DNA of 64,000 nt from assembly GCA_905181705.1 (NCBI GenBank), contig CAJIYP010000003.1:1-64000 (forward strand), in the 5' to 3' direction. Both the position numbers and the translations under genes were made by a program. Under the pieces are notes generated by a model that saw only the letters and a program-made list of their open reading frames with translations, was not told the origin of the DNA and searched no databases. This document shows, in pieces, positions 25,548-55,619 of the stretch. This DNA is from Cryomorphaceae bacterium BACL29 MAG-121220-bin8. Its GTDB lineage: Bacteria > Bacteroidota > Bacteroidia > Flavobacteriales > Flavobacteriaceae. Numbering within the stretch: position 1 is the stretch's first letter; each line of letters begins with the position of its first letter.

Positions 25548-28068
25548 TTATTTTGTGCTTCTTTCGTAAGCAAAACCGCCTTTCTCACCCTGTGACCAAG
25601 ATGTAAATTTAACTGTTAAATACACATCGTCTTTTTCCAAATACATCACTAAATTTTTACCAACAACATTTTTAGGTTTTCCAACTGCTGCTCTAAATTT
25701 TTTAAATGTTAACGTTTCTATTTGATCAATTGTTCCAACTGCCCATTTAGTTCCTACAGGACTATTGTTTTCATCGGGTTTACTTTCTTCTTTAATATTA
25801 TATATTTGTCCATACCCGTTTTTACCATCTTCTTTTTTGTTTGGTCTAGTAATCCAAACGTTATCTGTAATTCTATCTTGATTGGACTCCAAAGTGGGAT
25901 CAGATTGATCGCCTTTAGTAAATGTCATATTAGTTCCTGTCCAAATATTACTTCCAGAGGATGGGCATGTCCCCCAAACTGGTTTATTAGCATCTGTTAA
26001 AGCTGATGATTGGCTAAAGAAACTTGGTTCTGAAGTAAATTTGGTTACACACCATTTAGTTAAATCTTGATTAAAAGCAGAAGCATATCTAAACATACCA
26101 TCTATATTAGTCACATTACTCACATCCCAAGAACTTATATCTTGATTGAAAGCAGAAGCAAAAACATACTACTCATATTATTCACATTACTCACATCCCA
26201 ACTTCCAATGTATTGGTTAAAAGCAGTTGCACCAGAAAACATTGAATATCATTGTAAGCACATTACTCACATCCCAAGAACTTATATCTTTATTAAATAA
26301 TTTAGCACCAGAAAACATCTCTTCCATAGAAAAAACTTTACTAGTATCCCAGTTACTAATATCTCCATTAAAATTATTAGCAAACTTAAACATCATTTCC
26401 ATATTAATCCCCTTGCTTGGAGCCCAACTACCAATATCTTGATTAAAAGATTGAGCTCCATAAAACATGCGACTCATATCTGTCACATTGCTAACATCCC
26501 AACTCCCAATATATTGATTAAATGATCTATTGTAACTAAACATAGCAGACATATCAGTCACATTGCTGACATTCCAACCTGAAATATCTTGATTAAAAGT
26601 TGAATATTGAAACATCAAAGCCATATTAGTCACATTGTTAACATCCCAACCTGAAATATCCTGATTAAAAACACCAGCAACATTTTGACCTCCAGCAAAC
26701 ATTAAATACATTGTAGTCACATTGCTAACATCCCAACCTGAAATATCCTGATTAAAAACACCTTCAGCAAACATTTTACTCATATCTTTCACGTTGCTAA
26801 CATCCCAACCTGAAATATCCGAATTAAAAGCATTATTAGTAGAAAACATTTGCGACATATTAGTCACATTACTAACATCCCAACTACTGAGATTTTGGTT
26901 AAAAGAATTTGCTCCATAAAACATAAAACTCATATCAGTAACTTTACTTACATCCCATTTGTTTATATCCTGATTGAAAGCAGTACGAGCAAACATAGTG
27001 TTCATATCAGTCACTTTACTCACATCCCAACCTGAAATATCTTGATTAAATGAACGGACATTCAGAAAACATACTACCCATATTAGTCACATTACTCACA
27101 TCCCAAGAACTTAAATCTTGGTTAAAAGAACTGGCAGCAGAAAACATACTACCCATATTAGTCACATTACTCACATCCCAAGAACTTAAATCTTGGTTAA
27201 AAGAATTGGCAGCAGAAAACATAGCTGACATATCAGTCACATTACTTACATCCCAGCGTCCAATGTCTTGGTTGAATTTTGAACCGTTATACGATCCCAA
27301 AAAAATACCCGACATATCTGTCACGTTACTTACATCCCAACTGGAAATGTCTTGATTGAAATCTTCTTTTGCTTCAAAAAGAATTTTCATACCAGTGACA
27401 AGTGTAGTTACAACTTTTGTTACATCTTCATCATTGTCTGCCATTGATTTTAAGATAGTATTATCCACAGCAGTATAAGTGACACCTCCTAACTCTCCCT
27501 TAGTTCCTGCCGTTACCCAATCATAAGCTTTTATAGTAACCCCATTCTCATCTAAATAAAAAGGGATTAATGTCTCAAAAACTGCAGTTACTGTTTTAGG
27601 TTTATCAATAGTAATTTCCTTTGGATTCTCTGTTCCTGTCAAATCTCCACTCCATTGCTTGAATTTCCATCCAGCAGAGGGTGTTGCTGTTAATTCCACT
27701 ACCGTTCCACTATTGTAATCCGTAGCAGCACCTGCTTTTATTATCTTCTCTGTGATTGTTCCTTCTCCTTCAACAGCTGTGGTTAAAGCATATTTCTTTT
27801 TAACAAAGTTTGCAACCACTGTTTTATCAGAATTCATTACAACAGTTGTTTCTGAACCGCCCATAGCTCCTGTCCAGTTTTTGAATTCATATTCTGCAGC
27901 TGCGGTAGCAGTTAAGTTAGCCGTGTCTCCTTCATTATACTGCCTTGTGTCTGGCAAGACTGTTCCGGCTTCCACAGGATTAGAAGAGGTGGTTAAGGTA
28001 AATTTTATTGTTTCCTTGGTACAAGAAAATAAAAATAATACCGATAAAAATAAAATGAATTTTTTCAT
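25548..28068 (-). CDS. DUF285/BspA-like surface lipoprotein with a C-terminal uncharacterised domain; broken into three ORFs by frameshifts
   Basis: ORFs 27046-28068, 26217-27023 and 25548-26123 carry a continuous [20 protein letters not shown] repeat series; the repeat reading continues in other frames across ~27046-27066 and ~26160-26250. Lipoprotein signal LFSC at the 28068 end. Confidence 0.8.
27468..28068. repeat. Near-identical direct repeat, copy 2
   Basis: See copy 1. Confidence 0.88.
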
Positions 28069-41593: not shown

Positions 41594-42820
41594 ATGAGTA
41601 AACACACGAACAAAGTCCACGGTAAATTAAATTTCTTAATTGTGGCGGTTGTATTAGTAATAGGTGCAGTAGCATTCTTACTAATTCAATCAGAAACGAT
41701 TGATTTTAATCCTTCAGACCTTTCAGGTTCAGGGAATAAAGCAATCAAAGGCGGTAAAAAAGCCGTTAAATATGACAACAGAAATGAAGTCGTAGTTAAT
41801 CTTGACGGTGAAGAAGCACAAGAACTTCTTAACAATCAAGATTTTCAAAAGATGATCGCAAATCCAGAATTTGCAAAATTAATGTCATCACCTGAGTTTC
41901 AAAACATGGTAGCATCACCTGAGTTTAGAATGATGGCTGCTTCTCCAGATTTTGGGAAAATGATGGCCTCTCCTGAGTTTAGAATGATGGCTGCGTCTCC
42001 AGATTTTGGAAAGATGATGGCGGCTCCTGAATTTGGAAAAATGATGGCTGCTCCAGATTTTGGAAAAATGATGGCTTCACCTAAATTTGGAAAATTGGCT
42101 CTTTCAGCTGATTTTGGGAAAATGTTAGCTGCACCTGAATTTAAAATGTTAGCCCTTTCTCCTGACTTTGGAAAAATGTTAGCTGCACCAGAATTTAGAA
42201 TGCTGGCTCTTTCTCCTGACTTTGGAAAAATGTTAGCTGCACCTGAATTTAGAATGATGGCTGCATCTCCAGATTTTGGAAAAATGTTGGTTGGACCTGA
42301 ATTTGGAAAGTTAGCTATGTCAGCAGACTTTGGAAAAATGTTAGCTACACCTGAATTTAGAATGCTAGCTCTTTCTCCTGACTTTGGAAAAATGTTAGCT
42401 GCACCTGAATTTAGAATGATGGCTGCATCTCCAGATTTTGGAAAAATGCTTGCATCTCCTGAATTTGGAAAAATGATGGCTGCTCCAGATTTTGGAAAAA
42501 TGATGGCCTCTCCGGAATTTGGAAAATTGGCTCTTTCAGCTGATTTTGGGAAAATGTTAGCTGCACCTGAATTTAAAATGCTAGCTCTTTCTCCTGACTT
42601 TGGAAAAATGATGGCTGCACCAGAATTTAGAATGCTGGCTCTTTCTTCTGATTTTGGAAAAATGCTAGCGTCACCAATTTTTGGAAAAATGATGTCTTCC
42701 TCTGATTTTGGAAAAATGATGGCTTCACCTGAATTTCAAAAATTATCAATTTCTGGTGATTTTGGAAAGATGTTAGCTTCTCCTGATTTTGGAAAAGCTG
42801 CTGGATTTGGTGAATTTTAA
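41594..42820 (+). CDS. Membrane-anchored (single N-terminal TM) protein made of ~36 tandem 9-residue repeats, consensus FGKM(M/L)A(A/S)P(E/D)
   Basis: TM segment FLIVAVVLVIGAVAFLLI; ~60-residue linker; repeats from 41843 to the C-terminus, in strict 27-bp register. Confidence 0.9.
   Translation: MSKHTNKVHGKLNFLIVAVVLVIGAVAFLLIQSETIDFNPSDLSGSGNKAIKGGKKAVKYDNRNEVVVNLDGEEAQELLNNQDFQKMIANPEFAKLMSSPEFQNMVASPEFRMMAASPDFGKMMASPEFRMMAASPDFGKMMAAPEFGKMMAAPDFGKMMASPKFGKLALSADFGKMLAAPEFKMLALSPDFGKMLAAPEFRMLALSPDFGKMLAAPEFRMMAASPDFGKMLVGPEFGKLAMSADFGKMLATPEFRMLALSPDFGKMLAAPEFRMMAASPDFGKMLASPEFGKMMAAPDFGKMMASPEFGKLALSADFGKMLAAPEFKMLALSPDFGKMMAAPEFRMLALSSDFGKMLASPIFGKMMSSSDFGKMMASPEFQKLSISGDFGKMLASPDFGKAAGFGEF
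41843..42817 (+). repeat. 27-bp coding tandem repeat array with 216-bp (8-unit) super-period
   Basis: Units start at 41843+27(n-1), checked at units 8 (42032) and 24 (42464). Marker units FGKLALSAD / FGKLAMSAD / FGKLALSAD / FQKLSISGD occur at n=10, 18, 26, 34. Confidence 0.92.
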
Positions 42821-42840
42821 AAATATATTATTTAATAGAA

Positions 42841-42876
42841 AAAAAGGAGAAAAATTATTTTCTCCTTTTTTTTTTG
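42841..42876 (+). terminator. Intrinsic terminator after the repeat gene
   Basis: AAAAAGGAGAAAA-TTA-TTTTCTCCTTTTTTTTTT. Confidence 0.8.
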
Positions 42877-42900
42877 AACAAAAACCCATAAATTCCAATA

Positions 42901-45900
42901 TGATAAAAAAAATTAGTTTATTAATATTTATATCCTTTTCAATTAACCTTACTTTTTCACAGTTTAAAAAAAAAGAAACAAAAGATTTTAATATTATTAG
43001 CGTTGATCCACAATTTGATTATGTATTAAATCATGCTATTAGATGTACTCACAACGCTTTAGATTTTCATAGAAATTTATTTGATTACAATCCAAGAGAA
43101 AAAATATTTGTAATGTTTCAAGATTTTGGAGATTATGGAAATGGTGGAGCTACATCTCTTCCCAAAAATTTTATTTCTACATGCATTGCACCGATGAATT
43201 ATTCTTTTGAGTCTAGTGTGGCAGGTGAAAGAGTTTTCTCAATAATGAATCATGAACTTGTACATATAGCCGCATTAGATAATGCCACTAAAAGTGACAT
43301 CTTATATCAAAAACTATTTAATGGCAAAGTTAGGAGTTCTAACGATCATCCTATATCGATGTTCTACAGTTACCTCACTAATCCAAGATATTATTCACCT
43401 AGATGGTTACATGAAGGCATTGCTGTTTTTGTTGAAACATGGATGGACGGAGGAAAAGGAAATGCTCTTGGTAATTACGATGAGATGTTTTTTAGAACGA
43501 GAGTTTTAGAAAATAGCAGAATATATTCGCCTTTAGGGTTAGCCTCTGCAGGCACATCAGCAGATTTCATGTCTAAAGCAAATTATTACTATTATGGAAC
43601 TAGATTTGTTAGTTACCTAGCTTACCAATATGGACCCGATAAACTTATAAATTGGATTAAAAGAAATGAAGGAAGTAAAAGAGGGTTTGCCGCTAGTTTT
43701 AAACAGATTTTTGACATACCTATTTTAGATTCATGGAATAATTGGATTGAATTCGAAAAAGAGTTTCAAAAAAAGAATATTGATAATTTAAACAAAACTG
43801 CAACTAATAGAGAAGAATTAATTTCCGATAAAGCATTGGGGGGTGTTTCTCATGCTTATCTCGATAAAAAAAGAAATAAAATATATGTTGCTGTAAATTA
43901 CCCTGGTAAAATTCCACACTTGGCAGAACTAGATGTTGAAACTGGAGAGATTAAAAGACTTCACGATGTAAAAGGACCCACTCTTTTTAATGTAACATCA
44001 TTAATTTATGATAAAAATAATGATTTATTATTTTATACAACTGATAATGATAGTAAGAGAGATTTAAATTCATATAACTTAAAAACTGGTAAATCAAAAT
44101 TACTTTACAAAGACTCAAGAATTGGTGATTTAGCATTTAACAAATTGGATGAGTCTATTTGGGGGGTAAGACATCTAAATGGTAAAAGCACACTAATTAA
44201 AATAAATAAAATAAATCCTGAAAATCCTGAAAAGTTGTATACTGATTGGGAACAAAAATACACTTTACCTTTTGGGCATGATATGTTTGATTTAGATATA
44301 TCCCCTGATGGTTTGAGTATGAGCGCATCAGTGACTGATTTGAATGGAAACCAATTTCTTAATATTTACGAACTAAATTCTTTCAATCCTTTTGAAAAAG
44401 AGAGTATTAAATTTAAAGAAGTATTTGAATTTGATGTGGCCTCTCCACAAAGTTTTAAATATTCCGAAGATGGAACGTTTTTATTAGGATCTTCCTATTA
44501 CTCTGGTGTAAGTAACATTTTTAAGGTTGACACGAAAACTTTAGATATAGAATTTTTAACAAATGCTGTTACCGGATACTTTAGACCTATTCCAATTGAC
44601 AAGGAAAAGATTTTCTCATTCAAATATACAAGTAATGGATTTATGCCAGTCTATGTTTTTTTAGAAAAAGATATAGATGTTTCCAACATAGAGTTTCTAG
44701 GAAATAAAACAGTTGAAAAATTTCCTAAACTTAGAGATTGGACTATAGATGTACCTAACATTTCTAATTTTGATGAAAGTAATAAAATTGAAACCAAAGA
44801 AAGTGTTTACATTCCAAAAAAAGAAGTTAAATTAAATTACTCGTATCCAATTGTTGTGGGATATAAGAACAAGGTTGGAATTGGTTATAAGTTCAAATAT
44901 CAAGATCCTTTAGGACTCAAGGCATTAGATTTATCCTTTTCCTATACTCCAAATGATTGGAAAAACACCATGGACAGTTCTACAAGTGATATTGAAAAAG
45001 AAGAAGAATTTCATGCTTCTATAAACTATTCTTCTTCAGTACTTACTGGTGGTAAATATAATTTTTATGCGTCTTATAACAATGCGGATTTTTATGACTT
45101 ATTTGGACCTACAAAAAGATCTAGAAAAGGATTAAATTTTGGAGTTGATTACAATAGGTCTATTATTTATGATCCACCAAGAAATTTTGATCTGAATTTA
45201 GGTCTTAGCGGATATTACGGCTTAAATCAATCGCCAGAATTTCAACAAATTAATTTTGATAACAAAGATTTTAATACTGATCTATTTTACAACTTATATA
45301 CCTCCTTTTCTTATAAAAGCTTAAAGGGATCTGTTGGGGCAGTAGATGCTGAAAAAGGAATTAAATCTAATCTTACTTTGTCCACAGCAATGACAGAAGG
45401 AAACTTGTTTCCAAAAATCAACGGAAATCTAGACTTTGGAATACAATTACCAATAGACCACACTTCCTTATGGCTAAGAAATTCTTTTGGTAATTCTTTT
45501 GCAAAAAAAGTTAATCCATTTACAAGGTTTGGTTTTGCATCCTTTGGAAATAATTATATTGACAATGCCTCTTCAAAAATGTATAGAGGATCTTTTTCTT
45601 TCGCTGGGTTGAGTTACGACTCTGAGAAAAGTATTATTGCAAAAAGTTTTTACAAAACCACTTTAGAGTTGCTTTTACCAGCCATAAGATATAGAAAGTT
45701 AGGTTTTTTCAATCTATTTGCAACTTACTCCCACCCTACTATTTTTGCAGGAAGTTTATTTACAAAAAACTATGAAGAATTTGAGGGTAAATTAATAGAT
45801 TCAGGAAAAATAGGTAAAGAATACAGCGAAACTTTTAGAAATATAGGATTTCAAATAGACACAAAACTCGTGATGTTCTCTCACTTGTCTTCTACTATTT

Positions 45901-45980
45901 CATTTGGATGGGCTCGCGCATTTTCACAGGGTAAAGATTACAAAGAATATGATGAGTGGATGGTTTCATTAAAGTTTTAA
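42901..45980 (+). CDS. Secreted gluzincin-like metallopeptidase with beta-propeller-like middle and beta-barrel-like C-terminal region
   Basis: Signal peptide from ATG 42901 (MIKKISLLIFISFSINLTFSQ); the 42789 start lies before the terminator. NHELVHIAALDNA (HExxH) with downstream WLHEGIAVFVETW; C-terminal half rich in alternating aromatic beta-strands, ending in an aromatic-rich DEWMVSLKF. Confidence 0.75.
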
Positions 45981-45991
45981 TTTTTTGATTT

Positions 45992-46768
45992 ATGTCTAAA
46001 CTTTTAAAAAATAGTTTTGGTGCTTCTGTGATAATAACAGCTCTTTATTTATCCCTTTTTTATCCATTAATCTTAATAAATAAATTTGACTTGTTTGATT
46101 TGGTTTTAGTAACCTTATCTATTTCTCCAGGGATTTTTATTATGGTATTAATTTATAATCTGGATGAATACGACAAAGAACCTTTATGGCTTCTTTCTAT
46201 AGCTTTCATATTTGGAGCTATGAACCTACATCTTGATGTCGATATTTTAGATTATTTATATAGTTTAATTAATACAGAAAACAATCTGATCAGAGTTGGA
46301 GAAGAAGCTCTTTCTGTTGGTATAACAGAAGAACTTTTGAAATTTCTTGTTGTAATATTGATTATATATCCCAATAAAAATTTTGATGAGCCATTTGATG
46401 GAATAGTCTATGCAGTTTTTGTTGGAATGGGATTTGCAACGGCTGAAAACTTAGCTTTTGTAATGAACGGATCTGCCTCTCTGGCAATAATGAGGATGCT
46501 TTCTGCTGTTCCAGCACATTTTGTTTTTGCTGTAATTATGGGTTATTATTTAGGTAAAGCTAAAACAAACAAAAAATCGAAATTTTTGTATATAGTTTTA
46601 TCACTTATTATCCCAATATTCTTTCATTCACTTTATGATTACTTTTTGTTTTTAGAAAATATTCCTTTCATATGGGTTGGAGGGTTTGTGACACTGTTAA
46701 TTGCTTTCTTTATAGCTAAAAATTCAATTATTGAACATCTAGGAGCCTCACCATTTAGAAAAAAATAA
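45992..46768 (+). CDS. PrsW-like intramembrane protease
   Basis: Multi-TM; EEALSVGITEELLKFLVV, FDEPFDGIVYAVFVGMGFATAENLAFVM, PAHFVFAVIMGYYLG, FHSLYDYFLF. Confidence 0.85.
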   Translation: MSKLLKNSFGASVIITALYLSLFYPLILINKFDLFDLVLVTLSISPGIFIMVLIYNLDEYDKEPLWLLSIAFIFGAMNLHLDVDILDYLYSLINTENNLIRVGEEALSVGITEELLKFLVVILIIYPNKNFDEPFDGIVYAVFVGMGFATAENLAFVMNGSASLAIMRMLSAVPAHFVFAVIMGYYLGKAKTNKKSKFLYIVLSLIIPIFFHSLYDYFLFLENIPFIWVGGFVTLLIAFFIAKNSIIEHLGASPFRKK

Positions 46769-46853: not shown

Positions 46854-49800
46854 ATGAAGCTTAGGATTCTATTTCTTTTGTTGCCGATATTAATTTTTTC
46901 TCAAAAAATAAATTGGCAATCTAAAGTAGAACTTAACACTGATGATAAGTACCATTTTGAATCTTCATTTGAAAATTTTGAAAGCTCATTTTTACAACAA
47001 AATAAAATTCAAGTAAACCTTCCTGTAGACAGTTCTAATTTCGAAAATTTTGTTTTTTATAAGCAAAATCCTTTTTCTGAAAAATTATATGAAAAATTTA
47101 AAGAAGTAAAGGTATTTAGAGGTAAATCTTTAGATAGTGATAAAATATCTTTCATCTCTTTTGTTGGAGAAAGATTAAACATCTCTATCCTTGATGATAA
47201 CAAAAAGTCAATAATCATAAACTCTAAAAATAAAAATATTTTTATTTTAAAAAATAATATACAGGTTGACGATATTAAAAAATCTGATTTAACAAATGAT
47301 CTAATTGACAATACTAATACTTTTAAAAAAAAAAGTATTAGAGAACAAGCTCTAAACACTATTTCTTTTAGTCCCAAAGTAAAAAAATACAGAATTGCTA
47401 TTATTACTACAGCGGAATGGTCAAACTATTTTATCGACCTATATGATGCAAAAAATCTAGAGGATAAAGAGAAAAGAGCTGTTGTACTTTCAGAAATAGG
47501 AATTGCAATTTCAGCGTTAAACGGAGTTACTGAAAGAGATTTAGGAATAACTTTTGAACTTGTTGATGGTTGTGATGATTTGATTGAATTTGATACAAAT
47601 AGTGATGGTTTGACCAATGACGATAAATTCAAAACAATTTATGAAGGTGCACAAATTATCAATAGTAGAATTGGCTTAGCTAATTTTGATATAGGGCATT
47701 CTTTTTATAACGGAGGTGGAGGTTTAGCTGGAGGAGCATTGTGCGGTGGAAGTGGAAAAGCGAGAGGAACATCGGGTGGGTTAACAGGTATAGGGTTTCA
47801 TTTTGTCTTTGCTCATGAAATCGGTCATATGTTAGGTGCTCCACATACATTTAATAATGCAGAAGGATTTGGAGCTGGTGGTAATATGGTAGAATCTGCT
47901 GCTGGTGCCACTATAATGGGATATGGAGAAAGGAAAGAAAGAAATTTATATTACCATGCCCTTTCTATAAAAGAAATGAGTCAAACCATTAAAAATGCAA
48001 GCTGTGGAACTTTTTTAACAGAAAATACTAACGAATCTCCTAAGTATGTTTCTGAGCCTGAAAAAAAATCTTTTACAATTCCAGCAGGCACTCCTTTTTT
48101 ATTAGGTGAAAATTTTGAAATAAATGACAACAATAATAAGTATACAGATTTATTATTTAATTGGGATCAAATGAACGCTTATGAAATCACTGTTAATCCT
48201 CCATTAAACACTAGTTTAAAAGGACCTACATTCATTTCTTTATTTCCTGACAATAATAAAATTAGATATTTTCCTGACATTGAAACTATTCTATCTGGAA
48301 AAACTGAAAGCGAATGGGAGGTTGTCCCTCAACTTAGTAGGAATTTAAAATTTACTTTTACCGTTAGAGATGATAATAAAAATGGAGGAAGTGTTTTACA
48401 AGATGACTTTACTGTTCAAACAAAATATTCTGAAGATGGTGTATTTATGGTTTTAAGTCAACATGTAAAAGATTTAAAATATCATCAGAAAAAAGAAATA
48501 GAAATTAGATGGAATCATTTAGCTGCAAAGGATACAGAAAATGTTAATATTGAATTATCTTACGACGGAGGATATACCTTTCCAGTAAAACTTTCAGGAG
48601 CTACAAAAAACGATGGATTTGAAAAAGTAACTATCCCTCTAATCAGTAAAAGTAAAAAGGCCCGAATTCGTGTTAAACCAACTGACAATATTTTCTTTTC
48701 AATTAATCCTCATAATTTTGAAATTCTAGATCCAGAATTCAAAATGAATGTTTCTAATCCTGAAGAAATTATATGTTTTGGAGATATTAGTGAAATTTCA
48801 ATTAATCCAACTGGGGGGGCTGGACCACCATACAAAATTAAATGGGAAAAATTATCTGAACAGAATACTTGGATTGAATTAAGTGATAGTGATAACGATC
48901 CTAAAGTTTTATCCAATTTAAAAGCTGGAAAATATAAAACGTCTGTTACTGACATTGATAACAATATTTTTGAATCTGACCCAATTACAGTGTCTGGACC
49001 ACTAACAGAATTATTTGTTCAGTTAGAAAATGATATTAACAAAGAAATTTCATGTGTTGGAAATAATGATGGTTATTTAAATATTTCAACTAGTGGGGGT
49101 TCTCCACCATACACACTTTTTTTAAATAATCAAGTTATAAAAACTAATCTTAAAGAGAATGAATCCTTTAAAATAAATAATCTTAAAGCTGGTGATTTTT
49201 CATTGAGAGTAATTGATGATAATGGTTGCAAATCAAATGTTTTAAACGAAAAAATAACCGAACCAGAAAACGCACTTAATTTAAAAAACTTTAGTATCAC
49301 TAACCCAAGTGAGGGACTAAGTGATGGGGCAATTGATATTGAAATAGAAGGTGGAACAAAAGATTACAATTATAGCTGGACTAGTTTAAATTTTAGCAGT
49401 TCTGATGAAGACTTAACTGGTTTAAGTGTTGGTACTTATTTACTTACAGTAACAGATGGAAAGGGATGCGAACTTAAAAAAGAATTTATTTTAGAACTGA
49501 GTACTGATTTTAATTACAATATTTCAATCACACAAATTAATTGTTTCGGGGAATCTAGCGGAATAATCGAAACAAAACCAAAAGGTGGTTCTGGAGCTCC
49601 CTATAAAATAGAATGGTACGACTCAAATGATATATTAATATCGACGAGCTCTAAATTAAATAATATTAAAGCTGGAACTTATAAATTACAAATTACTGAT
49701 TCTGAAAACAACGTTTATCCAATCAAAACTATTGAACTTACAGAACCTCCTAGTTCAATAAATATTAATCTTGAATCTAAAACGGATATAAAATGTAAAA

Positions 49801-52800
49801 ATGATAAGACAGGTGAATTCAATATTTCAATTGTAGGTGGAATTGCTCCCTATAATTATTTTGTTAATAATGAGCTTGTAAAAGCTAACTCCGGAAATAC
49901 AGAAAATAATAAAGACGAATTAGTACAAAGTAATTTAAAAGCTGGATTATATAATATTACAGTTATTGATGCGAAAAACTGTTCCACAAACTTTCAAGTA
50001 TCTATTTCTGAACCAGAATTTTTGATTAATATTTTTAGTGAAAAAATCACTAACATATCAAAATACAATACTAATGATGGTTCCATAGAGATTATTGTTG
50101 AGGGAGGATTGTTAGCACAAGACAGCAACTATAGTTTTAACTGGACTGGTCCAAATGATTATTCTTCTACAAATCAAAATTTAACTGATTTAGCTGCAGG
50201 TAAATATATCTTAGTAATTACAGATGATAACAGTTGTTCATTAACAAAAGAATTTAATATTAAAACTCCAACTGACTTTTCATTTACTTCAATTTCAACT
50301 ACTATGCCTAAATGTTATGGCGGAAATGATGGAACTATTTCTGTTAGTTTTGAAGGTGGATATGGTGAACCATACACTGTTAACTGGTTCCAAAAAAATG
50401 CATCTGGTGACTTTGTCGCAGTTAGTGCTATTTCAGATACAAGCACAAGTATAATTACAAAATCAGGTGTCTATAAAGTTGAAGTTATAGATAATGAAAA
50501 TATAAAGTATATGTATGGAACTGAAATTATTGTAGATTCAGTTTCAGAATTTATCATTGACTCTCCGTTCAATGTTATTCCAGAAACATGTCCTGGTGAC
50601 AAAGACGGTTCATTTAATATAAAAGTAGCTGGTGGAACTGGACCTTACTCTTACTATTTAAATGATAATCAAATTGCAACTGGTAGAGGAAATGCAGTTG
50701 ATAATAATGATGAGTTTAAAGTTGAAAAATTAGAGAAAAAAGGATACTCTTTCTATGCAATTGATTCGAACGGATGTGTATCTAACCCTGTTATTATAGG
50801 AGTTGGAGGAAATGATCCAATTCAAATAACTAATCCTGAGACTGTTCTTCAAAACATTAAATGTTACGGAGACAGCACTGGTTACATTAAACCAGTGCTA
50901 ACTGGAGGAGATGGAACTGGTGTTTTTACATACAGTTGGTTGGGGCCAAATGGCTTTACAAGTAACCAAAAAGATATCGAAAATATAGGGGATGCTGGAA
51001 AATACAGCCTAACAGTTTCTCAAGGAGTATGCTCTCAAAAATTTGATTATGATGTTTTAGAACCTAACGAAATGTCTGCATCGTTAGAAAGTATAACAAA
51101 TAATATTTGTTATGGTGATGCAAAAGGAAGAGTTAATATTTCAATTAAGGGAGGAACAGCTCCTTATAAAGTGAAAATAAATGATTCTGGTGATTTTTTA
51201 TATTTTGGTAGAAAGGGAATAAATTTAAAAACGATTTCGAAATTAAGACTCCCAGCCGGAAAGGTTAAGTTTGAAATTACTGATTTTTATGACTGTAAAA
51301 CTATAATTCTTGAGCCTGAAGTTTTACAGCCCAAATCTAAATTAGTTCTTGATTATAATATAATTGGAGATTGTGAAGCTGAAAACAGTGTATTAAAACT
51401 AAAATTAAGTGCTGGAGATACATTTTTAAATGATGAAATAAAGGAATATTATAAAGTTAATATTACATCGTCAAACTTCAATGGTTCCTATGAAATGATT
51501 AAAAATGAAGAGTTTACTATTGAAAATTTAAAAGATGGTAATTACCTCATCAAAGTAACACAAAGAGATTTTCAAGAAAGCAATGATTCTCAGGAAATAG
51601 GATGTGTCGTTGAACAACAAATTTACATCTCTAATAAAGTTATTTGGGACAATAAAACAATTCAAAATATCACTTGTGTAAATGAAGACATACCAACCGA
51701 TGATGGGTCTATTATTTATAAAAATATTAGAGGAGGAACACCATTTGTCTTAGGTAATAAAACATATAAATATGAACTTTTACTAAACGAAATAATAATT
51801 GAACAAGGGACAATTAATCAGGACTCTGACTTGTTACTAAATAATTTAAAAAAAGGTAAATACTCAATTAACTTTATTGGAAACAATGAGAAATGTATAC
51901 AAACTGATGAATTCGAAATTACTCAACCTGTTCCAATTGATTTTAAAGTTGAAGAAATTTTTGACTCATGTAAAAATGCTCTTCTTGACGAATCAAAAGG
52001 TGCCATAAAAATTAATATAAAGCATGGTACTGCTCCTTACAAAGTTTATGTCATTGATCAAAATAATATTATAACAAACACTGGCATAAAAGGAGGGAAT
52101 CTTATTGACCAAGGCGGAATAGGATTCACAAGTACTGTTACTGGATTAGGAAAAGGAAAGTATAAAATTAAAATTATTGATTCTAATGATTGTGAATTTA
52201 TTTCTAATGAGATTAGTGTAGGTGAATTAGATGAATTTGTAGTTTCCAATATTTTATTTTATGATGTGGAATGCTTTGGAGGGAAAAACGGAAGCATAGA
52301 TATTGGTGAAATTAAAGGAGGACAGGCTCCCTACTCAGTTCTGTTAGAGGGAACAAACTATAAATTTGAAAGAAATTTAACAAAAGCCGTTGATAATTAC
52401 ATTATCGATGGATTAGAAAAAAACAATTATAAGCTAACTATAAAAGACAAAAATGGATGGTGTGGTACGTTTCAAAAAGAATTTTCAATAAGAGAACCAG
52501 AACTAGTTAAAATAAATATTTTAAATATCGAAAATCAAAAATGTTATGATTTTGATGATGGTAAAATAAAAATTGATTTACAAGGTGGGATGCTTACTGG
52601 AAATGAAGCGTCATACCTTACTAAATGGTATAAAAATGATGTTTTAGTCCCTCAATGGAACGACAAACTTGAAATTGATAATCTGGGCTTTGGTTTTTTT
52701 AGAATTGATGCTATTGCTAAATCTATTGTAAACGGAAAGGAAGTTTCTTGTCCAACTTCCAAATCATTTGAAATTAAAAGAGAAGACAGAATAATAGCAT

Positions 52801-55619
52801 CTGAAAATATTGCAAAACATGTAGACATAAGCTGTAATGGTGGGAATGATGGACAGTTTGAAGTGTTTTTTACTGGAGGAGCCCCACCTTATAAAGTGAT
52901 TTCTAATGGAAGCGTTATTGAAGATAATTTAACTAATAATGTTTACTTATTTAAAGAAATGCTTGCTGGAGATTATGAAATTGATATTGCTGATGCTAAT
53001 GATTGTAAATTTTCTGAATCTATCAATGATGCTACAACTCAAGTCAATGGTGTTATTAAAGTAAAAATTCAGCAACCAGAAAAACTTTTAGATGTAAAAG
53101 CAGCAATTATTAATGCAAGCTGCACTGGAAGTGAGGATGGAGAGATAATAATAAATGTATCTGGTGGAAAACCCCCATATTCAATTAATTGGAATTTAAA
53201 CAGACCTTACAAAGAACTTGAATCTAACCCTAATACAGGATATTTTAAAATTAGTACTGGAAAAGGAAGTGTATTCCCAACTGTTACTGATGTTACTAAT
53301 TTTTGCGGATCTATTTCATCAAATCTTGTAATTGATGAACCTCTAGAATTGAAAATTACTGAAATAACAAAAAAAGATAATGTATGTGTTGAAGGTCAAA
53401 CAGGTGAATATGAAATTTATCCAAATGGATTATTTGAAAGTATATATAGTAATGAAAAAATAAATTGGTTTAAAATTGAAGGGAATATTAAAAAATCTGT
53501 TATTGGATTAAACAATATAAAAATAAGCGATAGTGGACTGAAAGCTACCAACCTTCCAAAAGGTAATTATCAAATTGAAATTAAAGCGAATCACTTTAGA
53601 AATTTTAATGATGGTGAGATAGTTGAATGTTTAATCAATCATAAATTTGAAATTAAAGATCCTAAACCATTAATTTTAAATGAAGTAATTGAAAAACATC
53701 AAAACATAGTTTGTGAGTCCTCAACAGGAAGTATTGTTCTTAATATAAAAAATGGTTCCACCCCATACAGGGTACAAATAAATGATAATTTATCTCAAGA
53801 AATTACATTAGATTCAGACGGTAATTATAAAATTGAAAATTTAACAAAAGGGGAGTATAAAATAATTGTATTTGATAATTTAAACTGCAAAAGCGCAGAG
53901 GTCTCTACCGAAATATTAGAAATTGCTCCAGTATTTGATATATCTAATATATCAACATTAGACTCAAATAGTAATAATATTATTGAGGGGAACAAACCAG
54001 AATGTTACAATGGATTAGGTAGTTTTTATTTTGAAATATCTGAAAACCAGTCCTCTTTACCATTAAAATTTTATTTGGATAACATTGAAATTTTTATTGA
54101 TAATGAAATCTCTTTTGAAGGAAATGGCTACTTAATAAAAAATATTTCTTTGGGTAAGAAAGAACTTAAAGTAGTTGATGAAAATGGTGCCTGTAGAATA
54201 ATCAATTTTGAAATTTTAAATCAAGAAAAAATCAGATTAAAAAGTAGTGATAAGTTAAATTATATAAAAAAATATATTGCTTGCTCCGACGAGCAAGATA
54301 ATACAGACCTAAATTTGGGTATAATAGACGTAACAAATGGAATTATTGGAGGTCAAAAGTTTTTAAATTTAGATTATGAATACAAATTCAATTGGACTGG
54401 CCCAAATTTTTCAAGTAAAGAAACTAGAATTGAGGTAACCGAACCGGGTATTTATAATTTGGTAGTTACTGATTCTTTTGGTTGTGAAAGCGAAAAGTTA
54501 GATTTTGATTTAAGTATAGAACCTATAACAGCAAACCCTACTATTGTAAACTATTCTTGTGATGGAGAACTTGGGAGTATATCAATAGATCCAAAAGGTG
54601 GAACAGCCCCTTATTTAGTACAGTGGTACAAATCTAACAAAGAAGGTAAGTTATTAGAATTTATAAATGGACAATTAAAAATTGACAAACTAAATCCTGG
54701 GTATTATTCAACAATAATTGTAGACAATAATGGATGTCAAAAGATTGAAAATCATAAATTAATAAGTGAAGAATTATTTATCATTGAAGAACCGGTTATA
54801 GACGATGAGCTTTGTCTTCAAAAAACTGGGTATTTAGACATAAAGATAAATAACCCATGGGATACAAAATTAATTTTCTTGTACGACAATAAAGAACTTA
54901 CTTATACCAAAAACAATGTAACAGAAGATTACGTTTTATATCATGTTAAAATTGAAGAACCTCTGGGCGATGCTGATTTTTATGTTAAAAATGAGTACGA
55001 TTGTACGTATAAATTAAATCTTAATTTAGGGGTAGGAATCCCTGGCTTCTCGATTTTTGATAATAAAGGTCTGGAAATAGAAGATTTTGGAAAAGTTCCT
55101 TTTAATAGAGAGTTAACTATAAAAAATAATTCTATTGGAAAATATTTCTCTGTAAGTTATGATTTAGGTGATGGATCTGGTGAACAAGCATTTTTAAGAG
55201 AAGATGACCAAGGAATTAACATCAATTATAAGGAAGAGGGATATTATAATATCTCGTTAAAGTTATTTAATCCAGAAGGTTGCTTTAAAGAAATTAGAAA
55301 AACAATTTTAGTTGGTAAAGGGTACTGGTTTAAGGTTCCTAATGCATTTACACCAAATAACGATGGAATTAACGATGTCTTTAGACCAATAATAAGAGGG
55401 TTTGTCAAAGGAAAATTCAATGTTTTTTCAATATCTGGCATACAATTGCATGAGGAAACTTTTGATGTTGGTCAAGATTACAGAAAAATTGTAACATTAG
55501 ATGGATGGAGGGGAGATAATAGAATTAACTCTGATAAAGTTTATTATTACTTATTTGAAGGAACCACACTTGATGAAGAAAAAATAAGTAAATCAGGATA
55601 TTTTAAAGTATTAGAATAA
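46854..55619 (+). CDS. Giant (2921 aa) T9SS type-B secreted protein: reprolysin-like metzincin domain plus ~20 SprB-type repeats plus gliding-motility-associated C-terminal domain
   Basis: FAHEIGHMLGAPHTF (HExxHxxGxxH) with Met-turn ATIMGYG; many CxGxxDGxIxIxxxGGxxPYxxxW repeats; C-terminus VPNAFTPNNDGINDVFRPIIRG. Confidence 0.92.
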   Translation: MKLRILFLLLPILIFSQKINWQSKVELNTDDKYHFESSFENFESSFLQQNKIQVNLPVDSSNFENFVFYKQNPFSEKLYEKFKEVKVFRGKSLDSDKISFISFVGERLNISILDDNKKSIIINSKNKNIFILKNNIQVDDIKKSDLTNDLIDNTNTFKKKSIREQALNTISFSPKVKKYRIAIITTAEWSNYFIDLYDAKNLEDKEKRAVVLSEIGIAISALNGVTERDLGITFELVDGCDDLIEFDTNSDGLTNDDKFKTIYEGAQIINSRIGLANFDIGHSFYNGGGGLAGGALCGGSGKARGTSGGLTGIGFHFVFAHEIGHMLGAPHTFNNAEGFGAGGNMVESAAGATIMGYGERKERNLYYHALSIKEMSQTIKNASCGTFLTENTNESPKYVSEPEKKSFTIPAGTPFLLGENFEINDNNNKYTDLLFNWDQMNAYEITVNPPLNTSLKGPTFISLFPDNNKIRYFPDIETILSGKTESEWEVVPQLSRNLKFTFTVRDDNKNGGSVLQDDFTVQTKYSEDGVFMVLSQHVKDLKYHQKKEIEIRWNHLAAKDTENVNIELSYDGGYTFPVKLSGATKNDGFEKVTIPLISKSKKARIRVKPTDNIFFSINPHNFEILDPEFKMNVSNPEEIICFGDISEISINPTGGAGPPYKIKWEKLSEQNTWIELSDSDNDPKVLSNLKAGKYKTSVTDIDNNIFESDPITVSGPLTELFVQLENDINKEISCVGNNDGYLNISTSGGSPPYTLFLNNQVIKTNLKENESFKINNLKAGDFSLRVIDDNGCKSNVLNEKITEPENALNLKNFSITNPSEGLSDGAIDIEIEGGTKDYNYSWTSLNFSSSDEDLTGLSVGTYLLTVTDGKGCELKKEFILELSTDFNYNISITQINCFGESSGIIETKPKGGSGAPYKIEWYDSNDILISTSSKLNNIKAGTYKLQITDSENNVYPIKTIELTEPPSSININLESKTDIKCKNDKTGEFNISIVGGIAPYNYFVNNELVKANSGNTENNKDELVQSNLKAGLYNITVIDAKNCSTNFQVSISEPEFLINIFSEKITNISKYNTNDGSIEIIVEGGLLAQDSNYSFNWTGPNDYSSTNQNLTDLAAGKYILVITDDNSCSLTKEFNIKTPTDFSFTSISTTMPKCYGGNDGTISVSFEGGYGEPYTVNWFQKNASGDFVAVSAISDTSTSIITKSGVYKVEVIDNENIKYMYGTEIIVDSVSEFIIDSPFNVIPETCPGDKDGSFNIKVAGGTGPYSYYLNDNQIATGRGNAVDNNDEFKVEKLEKKGYSFYAIDSNGCVSNPVIIGVGGNDPIQITNPETVLQNIKCYGDSTGYIKPVLTGGDGTGVFTYSWLGPNGFTSNQKDIENIGDAGKYSLTVSQGVCSQKFDYDVLEPNEMSASLESITNNICYGDAKGRVNISIKGGTAPYKVKINDSGDFLYFGRKGINLKTISKLRLPAGKVKFEITDFYDCKTIILEPEVLQPKSKLVLDYNIIGDCEAENSVLKLKLSAGDTFLNDEIKEYYKVNITSSNFNGSYEMIKNEEFTIENLKDGNYLIKVTQRDFQESNDSQEIGCVVEQQIYISNKVIWDNKTIQNITCVNEDIPTDDGSIIYKNIRGGTPFVLGNKTYKYELLLNEIIIEQGTINQDSDLLLNNLKKGKYSINFIGNNEKCIQTDEFEITQPVPIDFKVEEIFDSCKNALLDESKGAIKINIKHGTAPYKVYVIDQNNIITNTGIKGGNLIDQGGIGFTSTVTGLGKGKYKIKIIDSNDCEFISNEISVGELDEFVVSNILFYDVECFGGKNGSIDIGEIKGGQAPYSVLLEGTNYKFERNLTKAVDNYIIDGLEKNNYKLTIKDKNGWCGTFQKEFSIREPELVKINILNIENQKCYDFDDGKIKIDLQGGMLTGNEASYLTKWYKNDVLVPQWNDKLEIDNLGFGFFRIDAIAKSIVNGKEVSCPTSKSFEIKREDRIIASENIAKHVDISCNGGNDGQFEVFFTGGAPPYKVISNGSVIEDNLTNNVYLFKEMLAGDYEIDIADANDCKFSESINDATTQVNGVIKVKIQQPEKLLDVKAAIINASCTGSEDGEIIINVSGGKPPYSINWNLNRPYKELESNPNTGYFKISTGKGSVFPTVTDVTNFCGSISSNLVIDEPLELKITEITKKDNVCVEGQTGEYEIYPNGLFESIYSNEKINWFKIEGNIKKSVIGLNNIKISDSGLKATNLPKGNYQIEIKANHFRNFNDGEIVECLINHKFEIKDPKPLILNEVIEKHQNIVCESSTGSIVLNIKNGSTPYRVQINDNLSQEITLDSDGNYKIENLTKGEYKIIVFDNLNCKSAEVSTEILEIAPVFDISNISTLDSNSNNIIEGNKPECYNGLGSFYFEISENQSSLPLKFYLDNIEIFIDNEISFEGNGYLIKNISLGKKELKVVDENGACRIINFEILNQEKIRLKSSDKLNYIKKYIACSDEQDNTDLNLGIIDVTNGIIGGQKFLNLDYEYKFNWTGPNFSSKETRIEVTEPGIYNLVVTDSFGCESEKLDFDLSIEPITANPTIVNYSCDGELGSISIDPKGGTAPYLVQWYKSNKEGKLLEFINGQLKIDKLNPGYYSTIIVDNNGCQKIENHKLISEELFIIEEPVIDDELCLQKTGYLDIKINNPWDTKLIFLYDNKELTYTKNNVTEDYVLYHVKIEEPLGDADFYVKNEYDCTYKLNLNLGVGIPGFSIFDNKGLEIEDFGKVPFNRELTIKNNSIGKYFSVSYDLGDGSGEQAFLREDDQGININYKEEGYYNISLKLFNPEGCFKEIRKTILVGKGYWFKVPNAFTPNNDGINDVFRPIIRGFVKGKFNVFSISGIQLHEETFDVGQDYRKIVTLDGWRGDNRINSDKVYYYLFEGTTLDEEKISKSGYFKVLE

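Follow-up and report, generated by a model that had tools for sequence, protein, structure and literature searches.

What is a protein that, beyond one membrane helix and a linker, consists of a single nine-residue unit repeated 36 times, and what do the genes that follow it do with it? The question is raised by a gene of the window (the whole 64-kb stretch of DNA analyzed here) that lies upstream of a peptidase and an intramembrane protease. To place this locus among its relatives, we searched for the family in sampled genomes of the window's own phylum, in plasmids and in a first scan of genome contigs. The features on which the analysis rests are the following.

41594..42820, plus strand: array protein gene, an ORF from ATG to TAA (408 aa) encoding an N-in TM anchor and 36 nine-residue units
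41630..41692, plus strand: single TM helix, approximately residues 13-33 (hydropathy; AlphaFold2 helix 8-32)
41711..41842, plus strand: conserved linker, residues 40-83 (alignments), with a KAxKY motif at 41759-41773 and LDGEExQxLLNNQDFQ
41843..42814, plus strand: 36 gap-free nine-residue units, residues 84-407 (unit table); AlphaFold2 models each as two helical turns with [SAN]P[ED] as the cap
42839..42875, plus strand: terminator-like hairpin and T-run between the array and partner genes (pattern detection)
42900..45980, plus strand: partner, 1026 aa, with a signal peptide, an HExxH peptidase (Peptidase_MA-like, HELVH at 43251), a TolB/lactonase-like beta-propeller and a C-terminal barrel
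45992..46768, plus strand: PrsW-family intramembrane protease (PF13367, E 5e-35; NF033739, E 5e-44)

A strictly periodic array behind a single membrane helix

The architecture that a preliminary description had read from the DNA alone holds in full: a reading frame of 408 residues, one N-terminal TM helix on which hydropathy and AlphaFold2 agree, and a gap-free series of 36 units, each of exactly nine residues with zero indels. The helix is preceded by a basic, K/H-rich tail of 12 residues that, by the positive-inside rule, would be cytosolic, and the linker motif corresponds in alignments to GVxKAERYRxxQ of distant relatives. Across the 36 units, position 1 is always F (36/36), followed by G, R, Q or K at position 2, K or M at position 3, M or L at position 4 (35/36), A, M or L at position 5, A or L at position 6, S or A at position 7, P at position 8 (29/36) and E or D at position 9 (34/36). 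The shorthand proposed for them, 36 copies of FGKMMAAPE/D, is right in number, but the first units (FQKMIANPE, FAKLMSSPE) deviate from that consensus.

Identity autocorrelation is higher at lag 18 (z = 34.5) than at lag 9 (z = 19.8), and TRF finds periods of 27, 54 and 216 bp in the array DNA. The alternation of units ending in PE and PD, which had been noticed by eye, is far from random: D and E switch at 28 of 35 steps, against a mean of 16 and a maximum of 25 in 2000 shuffles. Between the window and three relatives dN/dS of the array is ~0.1-0.2, and about half of the synonymous sites differ between units inside the window array, which argues for an old period under purifying selection, with no recent expansion. 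An assembly artefact, the objection that the preliminary description had raised against itself, is rejected, as independent MAGs carry the array.

A peptidase-barrel partner and a PrsW protease share the cassette

Among aligned partners, the HExxH and EGxA columns are invariant, giving the HExxH motif and downstream Glu that define Zn gluzincins; the window partner scores below the cut-off of PF13485. The barrel, whose C terminus reads SLKF with F as the terminal residue, matches the Omp85-type family PF19143 at E 0.002, below cut-off and in 2 of 8 members, and family scans of the eight members recognized no POTRA or TPS domain. These features weakly suggest an outer-membrane, Omp85-like barrel. 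The classes of G634 and G849 contain numerous partner-like proteins with weaker scores (20-60 bits; mostly ~1000-1150 aa), which suggest a larger family of candidate peptidase/propeller/barrel proteins.

The third gene belongs to the PrsW family: it scores 121 bits against a PF13367 cut-off of 23.5, and the residues of its EExxK motif (E113, E114 and K117) are invariant in the alignment. With NF033739 it reaches 150.5 bits, less than that model's 225-bit cut-off.

Pattern searches detect a hairpin of this kind behind the array gene at 25 of 29 loci, compared with 23 of 1160 shuffles, and different lineages have different hairpin sequences. The T-run of the window hairpin stops ~24 nt short of the partner start codon (ATG at 42900), so that a separate partner promoter would hardly fit in between. 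A terminator-like element at this position probably means that more array than partner is produced. A standard terminator scan did not list the window hairpin, perhaps since its stem continues into the T-run.

PADLOC returned no defense-system match, and we found no published description of the array/partner/PrsW cassette in the literature searched. Two-partner secretion (TpsA/TpsB) resembles it in that a repeat-rich polypeptide adjoins a dedicated barrel protein, and PlpD in that an enzyme domain is fused to an (Omp85) barrel, as in the window partner. Unlike either, the putative barrel here has weak family membership, carries a peptidase and a propeller, and lacks a recognized POTRA or TPS domain; the TM anchor and PrsW of the window cassette are also absent from two-partner secretion.

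Array and partner travel together while the repeat unit changes

Full-score matches of the N-terminus profile and of the partner profile fall in the same 7 genomes among 301 from Flavobacteriaceae. In the class sample the only full-length match is G358, which has both array and partner, and the other partner matches there are fragments with E > 1e-4. In two other classes an array-type gene adjoins full-length partners wherever upstream DNA sufficed; for the partly masked array gene of L143 the visible part was read, and a contig end cuts that of L147. Synteny with the downstream peptidase, which the preliminary description had singled out as worth checking, is thus conserved, the array-partner order being kept in relatives and the order array, partner, PrsW across three classes. 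The plasmid search returned no relative of the partner or the N terminus, and its one weak array match is a Bacillus collagen-like-repeat protein. Two N-terminus matches (L093, L094) were discarded as spurious. One assembly (G104) carries two cassettes, L063 and L064, with a 36-unit array in each.

Most counted members with 9-mers have arrays of 24-44 units, an approximately two-fold spread. The nine-residue period is kept in relatives whose units read FGKLMASPD, FQKMMATPD, FIALAKNPS, DARFAELAK, NEDFLKALR, SPDFSRLMA or RDENLVAAL. The period is 16 in L145-L148 and 12 in L159; periods are weak or different in L139, L140, L157 and L158, and no repeat stands out clearly in L141. In the array protein of L007, a Gly/Ser-rich insert precedes a degenerate LQKFMKSDN array. 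Nearly all members, whether they begin with a TM helix or a signal peptide, retain some version of the linker motif GVxKAxRYRxxQ.

The head of the protein varies together with PrsW. Among the 29 TM-anchored loci for which sufficient downstream DNA is available, 28 have PrsW in the locus, and the genome of the 29th (G642) encodes a cassette-type PrsW elsewhere (366 bits). In four divergent relatives (L143, L145, L146, L148), in which a 16-residue repeat was noted, a signal peptide replaces the TM helix; array and partner are retained, there is no PrsW nearby, and the genomes hold only distant PrsW paralogues (<= 93 bits). The association of TM anchor and cassette-type PrsW is suggestive, given that the loci share ancestry and that the signal-peptide relatives number just four and are related to one another. 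Judged from gene content and alignments, what the members minimally share is a head motif, a tail and the partner; PrsW accompanies heads that are TM helices, and some lineages add sigma/anti-sigma genes. G358 also has a further PrsW similar to the cassette type (L166, 318 bits), located away from the cassette on contig 11.

Relatives fuse the array to an anti-sigma domain

In 14 loci of the two other classes (L092, L135-L140, L149-L151, L153-L156), a single ORF encodes an anti-sigma domain, the TM helix, the linker and the tail. An ECF sigma gene lies beside 13 of these, the exception being L137, where the contig ends; L090, L091, L141 and L157-L159 encode the anti-sigma in a gene of its own. 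The profile of the domain matches B. subtilis RsiW over its full length (5wuq_C, E 5.5e-5), and NCBIfam anti-sigma models match it, weakly, in 10-11 of 15 members. A lectin match ranked above RsiW was rejected as an artefact of the repeats, none of its stretches being significant singly.

The fused protein of the relatives thus has the makings of an RsiW-type anti-sigma factor, with an RsiW-like domain, one TM helix, an ECF sigma neighbor and putative sigma binding. The window protein is not of this type, its 12-residue N-tail leaving no room for the domain, and no sigma or anti-sigma gene was matched within the 64-kb window. In B. subtilis, RsiW is cut by PrsW (PMC5358783), and for polymorphic toxins it has been proposed that PrsW is linked to the release of other proteins (PMC3482391). 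The relatives are reminiscent of the SigW/RsiW/PrsW system in that an ECF sigma adjoins a single-TM, RsiW-like anti-sigma, with PrsW in the cassette. The differences are that here a repeat array forms the extracytoplasmic domain, that the cassette includes a predicted outer-membrane peptidase/barrel and that the window version has neither a sigma factor nor an anti-sigma domain.

A proposed released envelope polypeptide and a possible periplasmic sensor

Our best explanation, to which we give a probability of about 0.48, is that the array is an abundant envelope repeat polypeptide that is held in the inner membrane, freed by PrsW and handled by the outer-membrane partner. Some 36 short amphipathic helices on a string would face the periplasm, anchored in the inner membrane by the one TM helix, and we infer that they are made in excess of the partner. 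The PrsW-type protease, encoded two genes downstream, would cut the array free, and the HExxH-peptidase/propeller/barrel protein in the outer membrane would bind it, trim it and/or pass it on. In the relatives, cleavage would also free the ECF sigma from the RsiW-like domain, reporting the amount of array in use; the window lineage would represent a three-gene core without this signaling head. Against our explanation, the fused anti-sigma domain suits a sensor equally, and the handled thing would not be the 9-mer as such, because the units are replaced or unclear in L139-L141 and L157-L159. The shared ancestry of the loci, the weak Omp85 assignment of the barrel and the detection of the hairpins by pattern also count against it.

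A sensor is the serious rival. An inner-membrane-anchored array would span the periplasm to the partner, and a change in this contact would expose the array to PrsW, in the relatives freeing sigma. The pairing of an inner-membrane anchor with a barrel partner, the RsiW-like domain, ECF sigma and PrsW of the relatives, and the elongated structure that helical repeats could form in the AlphaFold2 models are all consistent with such a tether. There is also a precedent in TAM, where a long inner-membrane-anchored protein (TamB) is bound to an Omp85-type barrel (TamA; PMC11014939), although the window array consists of predicted helical 9-mers with no TamB match in family scans, and its partner has a peptidase. 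We nevertheless consider the tether less likely: the signal-peptide relatives keep array and partner without an anchor, the N-tail of the window protein is too short for an anti-sigma domain, the hairpin suggests more array than partner, and an array whose size varies about two-fold among relatives is ill-suited as a fixed periplasmic ruler. As far as gene content can tell, the pattern would suit a partner-handled, PrsW-released polypeptide better than a fixed tether.

More tentatively, the released polypeptide may be the core of a new envelope system in which the head stays constant (the KAxRYR linker behind an anchor or a signal peptide) and the tandem-repeat tail is lineage-specific. A dedicated intramembrane protease would release the polypeptide, a dedicated outer-membrane peptidase/barrel would process and export it, and in some lineages a fused anti-sigma domain would let it report its own consumption. 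The cassette unites three things not described together in the literature searched: a strictly periodic polypeptide of predicted helical repeats, a signaling module of the RsiW/PrsW type in a Gram-negative phylum and a putative outer-membrane peptidase/barrel. The anti-sigma fusion makes the PrsW substrate predictable and testable, and the cassette as a whole points to a possible new link, open to direct testing, between the outer and inner membranes. The swapping of repeat units beside the same partner raises the question of what the array must be to work.

No known family or fold accounts for the array

The repeat had gone unrecognized in the preliminary description, and no curated family accounts for it: Pfam, NCBIfam and PDB sequence searches gave only weak or summed matches, and no individual stretch held up as significant. 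Matches to spermidine synthase, ubiquilin and coagulation factor V were rejected, as they arise from period and composition. The factor V B-domain, with its own 9-mers, matches at E 1.5e-48 but is an unrelated protein in an unrelated context. RTX nonapeptide repeats share the nine-residue period and are Gly/Asp-rich, calcium-binding beta-rolls (PMC6891781); membership was rejected, as the unit table holds neither GGxGxDxUx nonapeptides nor Gly-Gly-x-Gly-x-Asp, and helices are predicted. The Pfam and NCBIfam scans gave no TPR family match in the array proteins. NF047558 (TPR_END_plus), a domain that follows TPR units, scores 48.8 against a cut-off of 32 in L061, covering profile positions 25-56 only, and 28.4, below cut-off, in the window protein.

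AlphaFold2 gave a pLDDT of 51.6 and a pTM of 0.39 for the whole array protein, and 59.9 and 0.40 for 12 units with 15 alignment rows made of non-overlapping repeat copies. Both runs produced, at low confidence, a chain of two-turn helices in which each unit is a 7-residue helix and a 2-residue break, [SAN]P[ED] being the predicted helix cap. Foldseek found no matching fold in the PDB (best TM 0.20). At such low confidence, the solenoid, filament or rod envisaged in the preliminary description is one candidate shape, and a loose string is another.

A flexible, low-complexity string, acting as bulk or an entropic linker with helices that form transiently, would fit the low confidence of both runs, the freedom with which lineages swap unit sequences and the match of the factor V 9-mers by period alone. 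This is improbable, as zero indels in 36 units, an invariant F1 and a dN/dS of ~0.1-0.2 amount to more constraint than a spacer needs.

PF17830 (STI1-HOP_DP) matches 10 of 10 scanned members (best E 1.4e-9). The window protein reaches 14.3 bits against a gathering score of 29.1, and in L092 and L149 the whole-protein score exceeds gathering by repeat summing alone. STI1/HOP DP and ubiquilin resemble the array in their successive short amphipathic helices and NPxF-like starts, but the array keeps a strict nine-residue period over hundreds of residues, and with no single stretch for the 55-residue domain above gathering score, membership was rejected. Least probable of all is a holdase whose Met/Phe-rich helices, with their regular F..[LM] face, would form an STI1-type groove in which hydrophobic clients are held before being passed to the outer-membrane partner, since these scores are summed over repeats, unrelated families score alike and the F/M face is not conserved in relatives with RDENLVAAL, 12-mer or 16-mer units.

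Two other repeat-bearing stretches lie in the window. At 26060-27255, TRF finds 75-bp tandem repeats whose minus-strand consensus by eye resembles the BspA/DUF285 type. Downstream of the cassette, at 46854-55619, a 2921-aa ORF looks, by eye, metalloprotease-like at its start and of the gliding-motility type at its C terminus, and it contains many SprB-like repeats.
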